This document shows positions 476 to 44,163 of a stretch of 64,000 nucleotides of DNA, piece after piece. Location: contig NZ_CP019236.1 of the NCBI RefSeq assembly GCF_001955695.1, positions 2,294,001 through 2,358,000 of the forward strand. The letters run 5' to 3'. Source of the DNA: Rhodoferax koreense. GTDB lineage: Bacteria > Pseudomonadota > Gammaproteobacteria > Burkholderiales > Burkholderiaceae_C. Under the pieces are notes generated by a model, which saw only the letters and a list, made by a program, of their open reading frames with translations, was not told the origin of the DNA and made no database searches. Made by a program: the position numbers and the translations under genes. The stretch's first letter is position 1. Each line of letters starts with the position of its first letter.

Positions 476-3400
476 CTAGCGGCGCAGATCCAACGTGAAC
501 GGGAATTCCTTGCTGCCCGGCACGTTGATGGTGGCCGGCGGCACGTTGATCACGCCCGGCGTGTGGCCCATGCGCGTGAAGCGCGACAGGCGCCGGCTCT
601 CCGCGGTGTAGGCGTTGACGGGGAAGGTCTCGTAGCTCAGCCCGCCCGGATGGGTCACGAAGTACTGGCAGCCGCCGACGGAATGTTTCATCCAGGTGTC
701 GACGATGTCGAAGGTCAGCGGCGCGTGGATGCCGATGGTCGGGTGCAGGGCCGACGGCGGGTTCCAGGCGCGGTAACGTACGCCGGCCACGAATTCGCCC
801 ATCACGCCGGTGGACTGCATCGGCAGCGCCTGGCCGTTGCAGGTGACCACATAGCGGCTCTGGTTCATGCCGTTGACCTTGACCTCGATGCGCTCCAGCG
901 ACGAATCCACATACCGCGCGGTGCCGGTGGAGGAGCTTTCCTCGCCGAGCACATGCCAGGGCTCGAGCGCGTTGCGCAAGGTGAGCTCCATGCCCGAAGT
1001 CTGCACCGAGCCGACCAGCGGGAAGCGGAACTCCAGGTGCGGCGCGAACCAGCTCTTGTCGAACGCGTAGCCGGCCATGTTCATCTCGTCGATGATGTCG
1101 TTGAAGTCCATCTGGATGAAGGCGGGCAGCATGAAGCGGTCATGCAGCTCGGTGCCCCAGCGCGTGGCCGGCGCGCGGTAAGGGGTTTTCCAGAAGCGGG
1201 CCACGAAGGCGCGCAGCAGCAGCTGCTGCGCGATGCTCATCCGCGCATGCGGCGGCATCTCGAAGGCGCGCAACTCCAGCAGGCCCAGGCGGCCGGTGCT
1301 GCTGTCGGGCGAATACATCTTGTCGATCGAGAATTCGCTGCGGTGGGTGTTGCCCGTCGCGTCGATCAGGATGTTGCGCAGCGTGCGGTCGACGATCCAC
1401 GGCGGCATGTCCTGGCCGTATTTCTCGCGGTTCTTCGCGACCTGCTCGATGGCGATCTCGAGCTCGTACAACTGGTCGTTGCGGGCTTCGTCCACGCGCG
1501 GCGACTGGCTCGTCGGGCCGACGAACATGCCGCTGAACAGGTAGCTCAGCGACGGGTGGTTGTGCCAGTACAGCAGCATGCTGGTCAGCAACTCGGGTCG
1601 GCGCAGGAATGGGCTGTCGGTCGGCGTGGAGCCGCCCATCACGAAGTGGTTGCCGCCGCCGGTGCCGGTGTGGCGGCCGTCGGTCATGAACTTCTCGGCC
1701 GACAGGCGAGATTCGAACGCCGCGTTGTAGAGGAACTCGGTGTTGTCCACCAGTTCGCCCCAACTGGTGACGGGGTGCACGTTGACTTCGATGACGCCGG
1801 GGTCGGGTGTGACGGCCAGGAGCTTCAGGCGCGGGTCGCGCGGGGGCGGGTAGCCTTCGATGACCAGCTTGACGGCCAGTTGTTCGGCCGTGGTCTCGAT
1901 CGCGGCCAGCAGCTCCAGGTAGTCTTCCAGCAGTTCCAGCGGCGGCATGAACACGTACAGCACGCCGGACTTGGTGCCCACGGCTTCGGCCTTGGGGCCG
2001 CTGGCGCGGCGCGGGTCGCGCACCTCGACGCACAGCGCGGTGCGGGTGATCCAGTGCGCGGATTCCTGGCGCGACGGCACGCGGTTGAAGTCGGCCGGCT
2101 CGGTCTGCGAGGCGGTGCGGGCATTGGCGCTGGAGACCGCCGCGTTGGCTGCGCCGGGCGTGCCGTCCTGGCGCAGGCGGGCGGCCTCGGGCGTGGGCGG
2201 AACGCCCGCGGTGTAGGGCATGCGCGCGCGGTCGCCGAGACGGCCCTTGGCGAAGGCCTCGGCCCAGCTTGGATCGACGCCTGCGCCCGCACCGGTGCCG
2301 GTGGTCGCACCGGAGCCGCGGGCCCCGGCGTAACGCGCGAACATGGCGTTGGCATCCGGCAGCGCGCCGCGTGGGATCGACGGGTCCTGTTCGACCAGGT
2401 AGGGGTAGTCGCCTTCGCTGACCCAGGGCAGGGAGTCGAGCGGCAGGCGCAGGCCCATCGGTGAATCGCCGGGCATGAGGTACATCCGCTCGTCGCGGAA
2501 GAACCAGGGGCCGGTGGTCCACACCGGGCCGGCCAGGCGCGGGCCGTCCTGCGGCTTGAGCGGCAGCACGTAGCCGACCACGGCATCCAGGCCCTGCTCG
2601 AACACGCGGCGCAGCCGTGCGCGTTCCATCTCGTCGCCGAGGCGGGACTTGAACGGATCCACGTTGACCGGCAGCCGGCGTTCGCGCCACAGGTAGTACC
2701 ACACGTCCTCATGGCCGGCGACGATGTAGTCGCTGGTCAGGCCGAGGTTGTGCGCCAGGCGTTCGGTGAAACGCTGCGCGTCTTCGCTGGAGTAGTGCGA
2801 AGGCAGGCGTTCGTCGGCGAACAGATCGGGGTTGCGCCACACCGGCTGTTTGTCGGCCCGCCAGAAGATGTTGAGCGCCCAGCGCGGCAACTGCTCGCCC
2901 GGATACCACTTGCCTTGGCCGAAATGCAGGAAGCCGCCTTTGCCGTATTGGTCGCGCAGCTTGTGCGTGAGCTCGGTGGCAAAGCCACGCTTCGTCGGTC
3001 CGAGCGCGTCGGTGTTCCATTCGGCCGCATCGCGGTCGTTCACGGCGACGAAGGTGGGCTCGCCGCCCATGGTCAGGCGCACGTCGCTGTCGATCAGGTC
3101 CTGGTCGACCTTTTCGCCAAGCGCCAGTACGTCGACCCACTGTTCGTCGGTGTAGGGCTTGGTGACGCGTGGGGACTCGTACAGCCGCGTGACCTTCATG
3201 TGGTGCGCGAATTCGACTTCGGCCTTGTCCACGCCGCCTTCGATCGGCGCGGCGCTGGAGGGCTGCGGTGTGCAGGCCAGCGGGATGTGGCCTTCGCCGG
3301 CGAACAGGCCCGAGGTCGCGTCCAGGCCGATCCAGCCCGCGCCCGGCAGGAACACCTCGCACCAGGCGTGCAGGTCGGTGAAGTCGACCGTGGTGCCGCT

Positions 3401-4054
3401 CGGGCCGTCCAGCGCCTTCACATCGGGCGTGAGCTGGATCAGGTAGCCCGAGACGAAACGCGCGGCCATGCCGCAGTGGCGCAGCAGTTGCACCAGCAAC
3501 CAGCCCGAGTCGCGGCAGGAGCCGCTGGCTTTTTCCAGGGTTTCCTCGGGCGTCTGCACGCCGGGCTCCATGCGGATCAGGTAGCGGATGTCCTTCTGCA
3601 CCTGCTGGTTGATGTAGACCAGGAAGTCGTTGGTCGGTTGTTTTTTTAGATCGAGCTTGTCGAGATAGGCCTGCACCAGCGGCGTGACCGGCTCGGTGGC
3701 GAGGTAGGGCGAGAGTTCTTCCTTGAGCGTGTCGTTGTACTTGATGGGGAAGTTCTGCGCCTCGGGCTCGAGGAAGTAGTCGAACGGGTTGTAGACCGCC
3801 ATCTCCACCACCAGGTCCACCGTGACCTTGAACTCGGTGGTCTTTTCGGGAAACACCAGGCGAGCCTGGTAGTTGGCGAACGGGTCCTGTTGCCAGTTCA
3901 CGAAATGGTTGGCGGGCTCGATCTTGAGCGAATACGAGATGACGTTGCTGCGGCAGTGCGGTGCCGGGCGCAGCCGAATCACTTGGGGCCCGAGGTTGAC
4001 CGGGCGGTCGTACTTGTAGTGCGTGACGTGGTTCAGTGCTGCGTGGATGGACAT
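476..4054 (-). CDS. Transglutaminase-like / DUF2126 family protein
   Basis: A 1192-residue protein starting MSIHAALNHVTHYKYDR, the usual start of this family. The open frame continues upstream far past this point, but only this start matches the family. Residues ~5-90 form the bacterial transglutaminase N-terminal domain. The transglutaminase core follows, with Cys in ASGSCRDSGW, His in DLHAWCEVF and Asp in GLDATSG. From about residue 290 onward is the large DUF2126 region. Family genes travel with circularly permuted ATP-grasp and alpha-E genes in systems predicted (Iyer and Aravind) to make or process amide-linked peptides. The substrate is unknown. A short low-complexity GATTGTGAG-type linker sits near residue 610. 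The gene is divergent from comEC. Confidence 0.88.
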   Translation of the reverse strand: MSIHAALNHVTHYKYDRPVNLGPQVIRLRPAPHCRSNVISYSLKIEPANHFVNWQQDPFANYQARLVFPEKTTEFKVTVDLVVEMAVYNPFDYFLEPEAQNFPIKYNDTLKEELSPYLATEPVTPLVQAYLDKLDLKKQPTNDFLVYINQQVQKDIRYLIRMEPGVQTPEETLEKASGSCRDSGWLLVQLLRHCGMAARFVSGYLIQLTPDVKALDGPSGTTVDFTDLHAWCEVFLPGAGWIGLDATSGLFAGEGHIPLACTPQPSSAAPIEGGVDKAEVEFAHHMKVTRLYESPRVTKPYTDEQWVDVLALGEKVDQDLIDSDVRLTMGGEPTFVAVNDRDAAEWNTDALGPTKRGFATELTHKLRDQYGKGGFLHFGQGKWYPGEQLPRWALNIFWRADKQPVWRNPDLFADERLPSHYSSEDAQRFTERLAHNLGLTSDYIVAGHEDVWYYLWRERRLPVNVDPFKSRLGDEMERARLRRVFEQGLDAVVGYVLPLKPQDGPRLAGPVWTTGPWFFRDERMYLMPGDSPMGLRLPLDSLPWVSEGDYPYLVEQDPSIPRGALPDANAMFARYAGARGSGATTGTGAGAGVDPSWAEAFAKGRLGDRARMPYTAGVPPTPEAARLRQDGTPGAANAAVSSANARTASQTEPADFNRVPSRQESAHWITRTALCVEVRDPRRASGPKAEAVGTKSGVLYVFMPPLELLEDYLELLAAIETTAEQLAVKLVIEGYPPPRDPRLKLLAVTPDPGVIEVNVHPVTSWGELVDNTEFLYNAAFESRLSAEKFMTDGRHTGTGGGNHFVMGGSTPTDSPFLRRPELLTSMLLYWHNHPSLSYLFSGMFVGPTSQSPRVDEARNDQLYELEIAIEQVAKNREKYGQDMPPWIVDRTLRNILIDATGNTHRSEFSIDKMYSPDSSTGRLGLLELRAFEMPPHARMSIAQQLLLRAFVARFWKTPYRAPATRWGTELHDRFMLPAFIQMDFNDIIDEMNMAGYAFDKSWFAPHLEFRFPLVGSVQTSGMELTLRNALEPWHVLGEESSSTGTARYVDSSLERIEVKVNGMNQSRYVVTCNGQALPMQSTGVMGEFVAGVRYRAWNPPSALHPTIGIHAPLTFDIVDTWMKHSVGGCQYFVTHPGGLSYETFPVNAYTAESRRLSRFTRMGHTPGVINVPPATINVPGSKEFPFTLDLRR

Positions 4055-41762: not shown

Positions 41763-42146
41763 ATGAAATACTTCAAAAACCCCGCGAATGTCGTCTACGC
41801 ATTCGAAGCCGATGGATCGCAGGACGCCTTCATCGGGCGCGAGTTGAAAGCCATCTCAAAAGCCGAAGCCGATGCGTTGAGCCAGCCGGCCGCAGTTGCC
41901 CCGCAGCCTCGCCAATTCACAAGTCTTGAACTACTCGACCTGTTCACCGCTGGCGAGCAGCTTTCGGTTGCAACAGCGGCCATGACCAATCCGCAGGTCA
42001 AGCTCTGGTACGACCGATTACTGGCTGCGCAGTACGTGACGATTGCAGACCAGCGCACGCGAGATGGTTTGTCTGCCTTGGTGGCCATGGGCCTACTCAC
42101 TGCGGAGCGGAAGGCGTCGATTGTTGCAGCAATGGAGGCCACGTGA
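41763..42146 (+). CDS. Fibre-assembly-like protein, 127 aa
   Basis: ATG 41763 (MKYFKNPANVVYAFEADGSQ). The N-terminal MKYFK..NxVYAF pattern is common in tail-fibre assembly chaperone-like proteins; the C-terminal region LFTAGEQLSVATAAMTNPQV with DGLSALVAMGLLTAERKASI is a four-helix module often appended to such proteins. Confidence 0.68.
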   Translation: MKYFKNPANVVYAFEADGSQDAFIGRELKAISKAEADALSQPAAVAPQPRQFTSLELLDLFTAGEQLSVATAAMTNPQVKLWYDRLLAAQYVTIADQRTRDGLSALVAMGLLTAERKASIVAAMEAT

Positions 42147-42568
42147 GATTCCTCCTAACCCTCATCCTCTGCGCGCACCTCCTGACGCCCATCGCTGTAT
42201 GGGCTCAGTCCACCATGAAAAGCCCGCTCAGCTACAGCCTCTATGAGTACGGCGCCATGCTGGGCATTGCAATGCTCGGCGGCTTGGTGCGGTGGTATCT
42301 GGCCATCCGCAAGGGGGATGCGATGACCTACAGCCTTTCCGCCCTGATTGGTGAGCTGTGCGTGAGCGCATTCGTGGGGCTGATCACGTTCTGGATCTGT
42401 GAAGCCTTGACCATCCAGCCCTTGTACACCGGCGCGATTGTGGGCGTGTCGGGTCATCTTGGCGCGCGGATGCTGGTGATGGTGGAGCGCGCAGGTAAGC
42501 GCCTGGCTGAGAAGCGGCTCGGCATCAGCCTGGAAGAGACAGGTAACGCACCTTTGGGAGAACGCTGA
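42143..42568 (+). CDS. Holin (LydA/phage_holin_3 type)
   Basis: 141 residues with an N-terminal hydrophobic segment (MRFLLTLILCAHLLTPIAVW) and two further membrane helices (YGAMLGIAMLGGLVRWYLAI, ALIGELCVSAFVGLITFWIC), then a charged tail. Order holin-endolysin-Rz-Rz1 confirms its role in inner-membrane permeabilisation at lysis. The holin stop overlaps the start of the split endolysin gene. Confidence 0.85.
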   Translation: MRFLLTLILCAHLLTPIAVWAQSTMKSPLSYSLYEYGAMLGIAMLGGLVRWYLAIRKGDAMTYSLSALIGELCVSAFVGLITFWICEALTIQPLYTGAIVGVSGHLGARMLVMVERAGKRLAEKRLGISLEETGNAPLGER

Positions 42569-42663
42569 TGAATGCAAACCGACAAGCCTTCCTCGACATG
42601 CTCAGCGTGTCCGAGGGCACCAGCACCAGCCCAATGACGCAGAACAAAGGTTACGACGTATGA
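42568..42663 (+). pseudogene. R: Original 5' end of endolysin gene, cut off by HNH cassette
   Basis: The frame gives MNANRQAFLDMLSVSEGTST then SPMTQNKGYDV and stops at TGA 42661. This is the native start of a lambda R-type endolysin, with holin-overlapping ATG. The same segment reappears at 43205 in altered codons and continues into the full enzyme. The cut lies after the GACGTA codons. Confidence 0.9.
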
Positions 42664-42696
42664 AGTATAATTGCCAATTTACTTATGGAGTTGGCA

Positions 42697-43245
42697 ATGG
42701 TATTTCACAAGCATCCTATTTACAGAGCATGGATTGCAATGCGCCAGCGCTGCGAAAACCCAAACAATACCGCGTACAAATTCTATGGCGGCAAGGGAGT
42801 AAAAGTTTGTCCGCAATGGGGAACATTCGCGAAATTCCTAGCCGATGTTGGGGAGCCGCCTGCGCCTGGATTCACGCTGGACAGAATCAATCCATCCGGG
42901 GACTATGAACCAGGAAATGTTCGGTGGGCCTCACGATTTACTCAGGCAACAAACACGAAGATAAGGGAAGACAACTCATCTGGACTGAAGGGCGTCTCGT
43001 GGTTCCATAGGACCAACCGCTGGTTTGTTTTTATAAACCATGAAAAAAAGCGTGTTGCATTGGGATATTACGAAGATTTCTTCGAAGCCTGCTGCGTTAG
43101 GAAAAGCGCGGAGCATTTTATATGGTCTGGTCCAAGTCCTCATCTGTATATCGCATCTCTTAAGGATCGGCTAAAGGCCATTCCGAATAAAGGATTGTTT
43201 AAAAATGGGCACTCAATTAAGCGTAAATCGAAAAGCGTTCCTTGA
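42697..43245 (+). CDS. Homing-type HNH endonuclease with AP2 domain
   Basis: ATG 42697 is chosen because GGAG stands six bases before it. 182 residues. HKHPIYRAWIAMRQRCENPN, YKFYGGKGVKVCPQWGTFAK, FTLDRINPSGDYEPGNVRWA (HNH-like catalytic region, with Asp in place of the usual first His) and an AP2-like DNA-binding module SGLKGVSWFHRTNRWFVFIN. The family is phage freestanding homing endonucleases. The region is visibly richer in A+T than its surroundings. A perfect TATAAT lies at 42666-42671, just inside the cassette. Its last 41 bases overlap the restored endolysin start. Confidence 0.88.
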   Translation: MVFHKHPIYRAWIAMRQRCENPNNTAYKFYGGKGVKVCPQWGTFAKFLADVGEPPAPGFTLDRINPSGDYEPGNVRWASRFTQATNTKIREDNSSGLKGVSWFHRTNRWFVFINHEKKRVALGYYEDFFEACCVRKSAEHFIWSGPSPHLYIASLKDRLKAIPNKGLFKNGHSIKRKSKSVP

Positions 43246-43696
43246 TATGCTATCGATATCAGAGGGAACATCAACTCACCCAATGAGCCGGAATAATGGT
43301 TTTGACGTGATCGTGACCGGGCTTGATGGTCCTGAAATCTTCGATGACTACAGCGACCACCCGTTTGCCAACGGTCGCAAGCCAAAGCAGATCAACAGCA
43401 AGGGCCTGTACTCGACCGCTTCCGGCCGCTATCAGTTCATGCTGAAGGACTGGGCGCACTACAAGAAGCAGTTGAACCTGGCCGATTTCGGGCCGGTGTC
43501 TCAGGATCTGTGGGCCATTCAGTTGATCCGCGAGCGTGGTGCCCTGCCGCTGATCGATGCTGGCTCGTTCGATCAAGCCGTGGCGGCCGTGCGCAACCTG
43601 TGGGCATCTCTGCCAGGGGCCGGGTATGGCCAGCCCGAGAGGTCCATGCAAGCGCTACGTGCGGCGTATCTGATGGCCGGGGGCGAAGTGCTGTGA
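43205..43696 (+). CDS. R: Endolysin (lambda R-type transglycosylase), restored by cassette
   Basis: 163 residues. Residues 8-35 repeat the native start in recoded DNA; then GLDGPEIFDDYSDHPFANGR, STASGRYQFMLKDWAHYKKQ and LWASLPGAGYGQPERSMQAL match lambda R. Catalytic Glu is ~20 (SISEGT). AAGGA lies 10 bases before the ATG inside the HNH gene. The new start region has codon choice like the HNH gene, while the rest is phage-like. Cleaves cell-wall glycan strands. Confidence 0.92.
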   Translation: MGTQLSVNRKAFLDMLSISEGTSTHPMSRNNGFDVIVTGLDGPEIFDDYSDHPFANGRKPKQINSKGLYSTASGRYQFMLKDWAHYKKQLNLADFGPVSQDLWAIQLIRERGALPLIDAGSFDQAVAAVRNLWASLPGAGYGQPERSMQALRAAYLMAGGEVL

Positions 43697-44163
43697 TCGC
43701 CTGGCTGTCGCCCAAGACCTGGATTGCCCTAGGTCTGGCTGCGTTCCTCATCTTCACCCACGCCTTCATCTATCGCGCCGGCAAAGCATCTGTCCGCGCC
43801 GATTGGGACAGATCCACCATCGCCCAGCAGCAAGCCGCGGCTTCGGCCGAATCCGAAAACCGCCGTCTTGAAACCCTTCGTCAATCCCGAGTAATAGAGG
43901 CACAAAATGCAGCTACAAAACGCACGCAAGCCTTTCAGGCTGCTTATCTTGCTGTTGACGCTGAGCGCCGCAGGTTGCTCGACCTTGCCAGCGCCCCCAC
44001 TGCCTCAAACGTGCCCGGCCAACCCGAAGCCGCCGGAGATCGGGCTACAGCTTCCATCCGTTCCGTACTCGGAGCGTGTACGGCTGAAGTTCAAGAGCTG
44101 GGCCGAGCAGCTGACCAGCACGCCAGCGATGTAAAGATGCTGCTTGAGGCTTGGCCAAGATGA
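43693..44163 (+). CDS. Rz: Rz inner-membrane spanin
   Basis: 156 residues from GTG 43693 overlapping the endolysin stop. N-terminal signal anchor WIALGLAAFLIFTHAFIY then a long coiled coil (QQQAAASAESENRRLETLRQ). Works with Rz1 to fuse inner and outer membranes at lysis. Confidence 0.88.
   Translation: MIAWLSPKTWIALGLAAFLIFTHAFIYRAGKASVRADWDRSTIAQQQAAASAESENRRLETLRQSRVIEAQNAATKRTQAFQAAYLAVDAERRRLLDLASAPTASNVPGQPEAAGDRATASIRSVLGACTAEVQELGRAADQHASDVKMLLEAWPR
43907..44134 (+). CDS. Rz1: Rz1 outer-membrane lipoprotein spanin (nested in Rz)
   Basis: 75 residues wholly inside Rz in another frame. Lipobox LSAAGC with Cys24, then a proline-rich mature part (STLPAPPLPQTCPANPKPPE). Complete nesting is the classic lambda Rz/Rz1 layout. 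Confidence 0.9.
   Translation: MQLQNARKPFRLLILLLTLSAAGCSTLPAPPLPQTCPANPKPPEIGLQLPSVPYSERVRLKFKSWAEQLTSTPAM

Follow-up and report, generated by a model that had tools for sequence, protein, structure and literature searches.

A 649-bp insert with an HNH endonuclease gene splits a lambda-R-type endolysin gene after codon 31, at the sequence GACGT, in the 64,000-nucleotide stretch of Rhodoferax koreense DNA analyzed here (the window). The insert is very probably a phrog_374 HNH homing endonuclease element that travels together with a replacement 5' end of its own target gene. The first-pass annotation had already described an endolysin split by an HNH cassette with a recoded second 5' end, and this is confirmed from the open reading frames and their alignment. 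The cassette limits given there had to be corrected to 42660-43308 on the basis of the two GACGT repeats, while the insert as such stands. The features of the locus are collected in Table 1.

Table 1. Features of the interrupted endolysin locus (window coordinates)
Feature	Position	Strand	Basis or remark
Holin gene, 5' of the native endolysin start	42143..42568	+	PF16083, E 4.5e-18; phrog_785 holin, E 2.5e-20
Remnant of the native endolysin start (31 codons), ended by a TGA immediately after the junction	42568..42663	+	nucleotide match of relatives
Left GACGT copy, junction	42655..42659	+	
Inserted element: leader, HNH ORF and imported endolysin 5' end	42660..43308	+	flanks joinable in frame
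Hairpin, 11-bp, in the element leader over the HNH start region	42670..42698	+	-12.3 kcal/mol, z -3.05
HNH endonuclease ORF, 186 aa	42685..43245	+	phrog_374; protein P0121 begins at the in-frame ATG 42697
Imported, diverged endolysin 5' end, SEGT motif included	43205..43308	+	ORF list, alignment
Overlap of HNH 3' end and endolysin start, 41 bp, two frames	43205..43245	+	
Right GACGT copy, junction	43304..43308	+	
Rest of the endolysin gene, mostly or wholly native	43309..43696	+	nucleotide match to L022/L024/L023, GC3

The upstream endolysin start lies directly 3' of the holin ORF and reads MNANRQAFLDMLSVSEGTSTSPMTQNKGYDV, followed by a stop codon. When the flanks are joined in a script at GACGT, an uninterrupted endolysin of 160 aa is obtained, and the second endolysin start at 43205 opens a frame of 163 aa that ends at 43696. 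The GC content is 0.46 over 42665-43309, and a promoter scan returned no promoter-like sites in 42560-43320. The hairpin in the element leader was equaled by 1 of 200 shuffles. Its core (ATTGCCAA...TTGGCAAT) is located at the left end of the element and encloses a GGAG that could serve the HNH start at 42697; the hairpin is possibly a control on endonuclease translation. The window locus is also present, at 100%, as an IMG/VR record (L021).

The two endolysin 5' ends are diverged copies of one another. Over 28 codons they share 21/28 residues and 56/84 bases, exactly as counted in the first-pass annotation (56/87 bases if the non-matching stop column is included), and 13 of the 21 codons for the same residue are spelled differently. 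In a constrained flank comparison the duplicate scores 121, with the best of 1500 mismatched pairs at 61. The GC content at third codon positions (GC3) is 0.72 in the upstream 5' end, 0.40 in the downstream one, 0.49 in the HNH gene, 0.76 in the rest of the endolysin and 0.77 in the holin gene. In its low GC3 the downstream 5' end hence resembles the HNH gene and differs from the host endolysin gene.

A related endolysin was found in 35 viral loci, one of which is the window's own. The three closest of the 34 others (L022, L023 and L024) read through the site and are insert-free. The upstream fragment matches them at 80/93, 62/84 and 78/93 nt, respectively, the 5' end of the functional copy at 60/93, 51/84 and 59/93 nt, and the remainder of the gene at 278/381, 271/375 and 259/375 nt. 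All three relatives are thus closer to the upstream fragment than to the functional 5' end, which identifies the former as native and the latter as the import. This comparison had been proposed in the first-pass annotation, together with the pattern that would speak for the opposite, namely uninterrupted relatives matching the recoded 5' end, and no such pattern was found. A native downstream 5' end, with the upstream fragment as an import or a tandem duplicate, would agree with the fact that the whole gene is joined to the downstream copy only. This reading is nevertheless extremely improbable, as it is the upstream copy that adjoins the holin in the arrangement of a native lysis cassette, has the regional GC3 and matches the uninterrupted relatives, and the remnants in the loci L332 and KIL4 described below likewise match their empty-site sisters.

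Along the functional copy, GC3 is 0.50 in codons 37-48, 0.75 in codons 49-60 and 0.92 in codons 61-72. The climb over codons 37-60 places the putative changeover from foreign to native sequence between 43304 and approximately 43350, so that it may lie up to about 40 bp past GACGT. A donor of the window's 5' end was not found among 44 endolysin loci, the best of which (L027) matches at 61/93 nt. A DNA search with 42568-43309 gave matches in 3 of 399 genomes of the order, being the window's own and two short ones (37 and 22 bases), and a nucleotide search of the locus in phage records returned 53 records, of which 51 have 60-80% identity and none covers 80% of the locus.

The endonuclease ORF has no internal stop and matches phrog_374 with an E value of 2.1e-44. 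The HNH part of the earlier label 'HNH/AP2' is thereby borne out, whereas the AP2 part is weak, with a Pfam E value of 0.17 that is below cut-off; a relative (P0123) reaches 1.6e-3 for AP2. Matches to the HNH protein were found in 4 of 100 relatives (E<=1e-3) and in 7 of 399 family genomes (E<=1e-8), in both cases with the own genome included, and besides the own genome all of these are at most 48% identical. When genome contigs were scanned with a profile of four aligned HNH sequences, none of 104 stretches was confirmed. P0122, the closest relative of the HNH protein (56% identity over 97%), is known here as a protein alone. In the +1 frame its C-terminal tail could encode NR[KQ]AFLD, at the place where the window HNH gene overlaps NRKAFLD. 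This motif is permitted in 0 of 104 other homologues (last 40 residues, either shifted frame) and in 0 of 5000 shuffles of the P0122 tail, and it suggests, without proving, that the P0122 gene would also overlap an endolysin start.

The endolysin aligns with the lambda lysozyme structures 1am7 and 3d3d over residues 5-162 (E about 5e-41), and its SEGT, located inside the imported piece, is aligned with the SEGT of lambda lysozyme. The whole-length homology and the SEGT alignment identify it as a lambda R-type endolysin (GH104). The glutamate of SEGT is presumably the catalytic residue in lambda lysozyme. As the frame is intact, the lambda lysozyme alignment spans residues 5-162 and SEGT lies in the imported 5' end, the latter would restore lysis. 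The replacement start probably keeps the endolysin working and, in addition, hides the gene from the endonuclease. The closest named endolysins are those of Variovorax. The database endolysin P0001 (137 aa) begins at an internal MSRNNGFDV and does not include the imported 5' end and SEGT; the annotated start therefore lies inside the gene and misses the motif.

The first-pass annotation considered a 5' replacement in a phage lysis gene unusual. This did not hold, as the same architecture is present in 8 of 222 distinct HNH loci, the window included, with empty-site sisters for two. Diverged duplicates across the endonuclease ORF were initially sought by the constrained flank test in 188 instances, including the window, where 9 score at least 50 compared to 2 of 1500 mismatched pairs. 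In an enlarged set of 202 loci (95%-deduplicated, window left out), 11 reach at least 50 with 0.27 expected, some being 3'-end cases and some GC-rich noise, and 10 reach at least 55 compared to 0 of 3000 mismatched pairs. Three of these ten (L243, L245 and L057) were judged to be low-complexity, GC-rich frame-match noise. A 24-nt repeat was seen at L158 in the same scan.

A start-anchored test, specific to 5' ends and extending 1 kb upstream, was applied to the 222 distinct HNH loci with a threshold of at least 45. The threshold is reached by 8 of the 222 loci, window included, compared to 0 of 1000 mismatched pairs, and 214 remain below it. With gene names according to Pfam, the interrupted genes encode a terminase (L332 and L151/L152), the endolysin of the window, a macro-domain protein (LucasX) and an ADP-ribosylglycohydrolase (L177); the others are a gene annotated as thymidylate synthase (KIL4), a gene cut by the contig end (L212) and the gene at L228. 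A ninth case, a D12 methylase gene (L335/336/338) with a 9-residue duplicate (22/27 nt), was kept by reading and not by score: it scores 35, a value reached by 13 of 222 loci with 2.4 expected. A score of 40 at L093 belongs to a 3'-end case. All eight non-window HNH proteins, L335 included, match phrog_374 with E values of at most 2.4e-46. Furthermore, inspection by eye shows an overlap between the replacement start and the HNH stop in all nine cases, with a length of 4-41 nt (8 nt at L228). The earlier scan was limited to 220 nt upstream and missed KIL4, which was first noticed by eye, and LucasX scored 32 in it because the annotated HNH start was used; both are recovered with 1 kb upstream. 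A relative of L151 (L252) has the HNH and terminase genes with no remnant visible by eye, and some cases may therefore be plain upstream insertions, whether or not they were tidied up later.

The states before and after insertion can be compared in sister phages, the sites being uninterrupted in endonuclease-less alleles not only for the window (L022, L023 and L024) but also for two other members (KIL1 and L379). The terminase remnant of L332 matches the HNH-less L379 and L378 at 75/81 nt and 27/27 aa each, compared to 55/81 nt (L379) and 54/81 nt (L378) and 21/27 aa for the functional 5' end. Identity between the L332 and L379 terminase genes is 64-76% in codons 1-180 and rises to 89-97% in codons 211-450, which points to a foreign tract of about 200 codons followed by native sequence. 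With a tract of this length, the replacement 5' end is not always a fixed-length cargo.

The second comparison involves KIL1, KIL4 and KIL5, which are Pseudomonas phages from one collection. KIL1 represents the empty state, with an uninterrupted gene of 113 codons that is annotated as thymidylate synthase and has no Pfam match. In the occupied KIL4, the first 203 nt of the KIL1 gene are unchanged (203/203) and are followed by the HNH gene gp086, the product of which is 42.7% identical to the window HNH protein over residues 7-143, and then by a full copy of the gene. The replacement 5' end of KIL4 shares 124/216 nt and 40/72 aa with KIL1, and 22 of the 40 codons for the same residue are respelled. 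After the replacement the two are identical to the end of the gene (126/126 nt). The flanks are 99.6% and 98.3% identical, and 13 nt of KIL1 are absent from KIL4. In KIL5 (L471 2501-2842) the recoded gene start is kept and the HNH gene is absent; the gene consists of 59 native nt followed by sequence equal to the KIL4 replacement copy, with 18 differences, all in the first 54 nt. The simplest reading is that the endonuclease gene was lost when the two copies of the 5' end recombined at GAAGC, which would have left the recoded allele behind. The same gene is listed at 100% in two places for KIL2. KIL1, KIL4 and KIL5 have a second small HNH-annotated gene (L474 2053-2487), with the thymidylate synthase gene on one side and the interrupted gene on the other; by eye its product seems closer to LAGLIDADG than to HNH enzymes.

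In the proposed mechanism, the element would combine an endonuclease gene with the endolysin 5' end of a foreign allele, the stop of the former overlapping the start of the latter. The enzyme would cut endonuclease-less alleles at a conserved stretch, in the endolysin between GYDV and IVTG, and elsewhere in the P-loop region HGG/RGG (L332 terminase) or at YYGG (methylase). Repair would proceed via the homologous remainder on the right, with the homologous end invading the donor allele, and copying would yield the donor 5' end with the endonuclease gene in front of it. The new 5' end would become fused in frame to the remainder of the recipient gene and the other end would be joined at or near the break, so that the recipient's own 5' end stays upstream as a short dead ORF. 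Expression of the gene would continue from the start codon region shared with the endonuclease stop. As the new 5' end differs at many third positions, the reconstituted gene is predicted to be a poor substrate, and the recoding would block self-cutting. Immunity is not certain, because the right half of the presumed site (GACGTGATCGTGACCGG) is unchanged in the functional copy of the window and the left half alone differs. Once present, the occupied allele would be flanked by homology on both sides and could then be propagated through ordinary double-strand-break repair. For the first step, the expected donor is a phage in which an endonuclease gene lies directly upstream of the target and overlaps it, as in L252.

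Ordinary mosaic recombination with a phage that has a free-standing HNH gene between holin and endolysin, the left breakpoint having chanced inside the old endolysin, would require no endonuclease activity at all. Free-standing HNH genes that overlap the next gene without a visible remnant do occur (L252 and the terminase of phage PVA3), the foreign tract of L332 reaches far into its gene, and HNH genes are reported at phage recombination boundaries in the available text of PMC10448857. However, remnant and remainder meet in the window with 0 bases missing, and in KIL4 with the small gap given above, although random breakpoints need not be complementary. In addition, the recurrence exceeds that in mismatched controls, and the near-identical flanks of KIL1 and KIL4 make a local insertion sufficient. 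Mosaic recombination is therefore regarded as unlikely. A group I intron or intein-like element, with splicing of the first fragment to the remainder, is suggested by the uninterrupted frame of the joined flanks. This is highly unlikely, since nothing in the 64-kb window scores at or above the gathering threshold of an Rfam family, the pieces are separated by stop codons, which argues against an intein, and the insert brings its own complete 5' end, rendering splicing unnecessary.

The homing element with a replacement 5' end, as preferred here, has its closest known counterparts in fungal mitochondrial mobile ORFs with gene-end replacement, which, as far as PMC3630166 was available, include Allomyces atp6 and Glomus sp. 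atp6, atp9, cox2 and nad3. The parallel with Allomyces atp6 drawn in the first-pass annotation is apt, given the functional likeness to fungal elements that bring a foreign C-terminus (PMC3630166, in part). In both systems, according to the accessible text, an endonuclease ORF lies in a protein gene, the foreign, diverged end is functional and the native end is orphaned. The two ends of Glomus atp6 share 63.5% nt and 91% aa identity in the portion of PMC3630166 at hand, compared to 56/84 nt and 21/28 aa in the window. In contrast, the fungal elements covered there replace the 3' end and encode LAGLIDADG or GIY-YIG enzymes, while the window element replaces the 5' end, with the gene start overlapping the endonuclease stop, and encodes an HNH enzyme in phages. 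Because it is the 5' and not the 3' end that is replaced, the window element is a mirror-image variant of the fungal elements and not a member of that family.

Among phage systems, IPA-HNH homing endonuclease genes have been described near polymerase, ribonucleotide reductase and terminase genes (PMC10448857, in part). They encode HNH enzymes with a C-terminal AP2-like part and lie near essential genes; the window element likewise encodes an HNH enzyme and lies in such a gene, and its Pfam AP2 match is below the cut-off. Unlike in the window, duplicated gene ends are not mentioned in the text available of that paper, and its main text, as available, contains neither 'remnant' nor 'start codon'. 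T4-like phages have free-standing homing endonucleases, and mobE/mobA insertions split genes (PMC2988022, in part). Such systems, as presented there, share with the window an intron-less endonuclease gene that can split a gene and, as proposed here, double-strand-break repair with co-conversion. However, the halves of the split genes (nrdA, gene 60 and gene 43) are separate polypeptides, and a replacement 5' end is not described in the sections available (PMC2988022). One-sided homing in T4, for which the same excerpts report junctions at microhomology (PMC2988022), is a further likeness, as it requires homology on one side only, forms the second junction at microhomology and would leave a remnant; it was shown with a group I intron system, whereas the window has a replacement gene end. 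Taken together, the accessible parts of the phage papers PMC10448857, PMC12724721 and PMC2988022 deal with co-conversion, truncated HNH genes and split genes, and no description of a replacement 5' end brought by a phage endonuclease was found in the open PMC literature, as far as its text was available. The terms HNH, homing, thymidylate, endonuclease and duplicat have 0 occurrences in the main text of the KIL phage paper (PMC4791379).

More generally, it is rather probable that phage homing elements which take along a foreign 5' or 3' end of their target form a widespread class. Each gain would rewrite the end of an essential gene, loss as in KIL5 would leave a recoded, presumably resistant allele, and cycles of both would force a stepwise allelic replacement of conserved genes. 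If so, the genes under such replacement would be those for terminase, endolysin, DNA methylase and macro-domain proteins and genes of the nucleotide-metabolism region. A replacement start that is carried along would be a simple answer for an intron-less selfish endonuclease inside an essential phage gene, and would explain short orphan ORFs 5' of phage HNH genes as well as abrupt shifts in codon usage at phage gene starts. As KIL1, KIL4 and KIL5 provide empty, occupied and HNH-less recoded alleles in cultured sisters, gain, loss and immunity are directly testable.

Several further loci were noted by reading. An HNH ORF followed by a diverged remnant of the 3' end of the upstream gene is seen at L214 3813-4343, L109 2397-2970, L220 4945-5694, L094 (/L093) 3039-3735, L129 625-1275 and L464 1419-2106. 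These 3'-end cases look like the phage equivalent of 3'-end replacement in mitochondria, and some of them lie at the ends of terminase-like genes. The LucasX record has a Rho-independent terminator annotated over the end of the remnant ORF, 5' of the HNH gene (L457 1376-1423), and in the Shewanella phage SFCi1 (L465 1-2432) an HNH match is found inside an annotated DNA polymerase CDS. In the window itself, a small ORF with a lipoprotein-like start (43907-44134) lies within the next lysis gene (43510-44163) in a different frame and, by reading only, would form with it an Rz/Rz1-like spanin pair.
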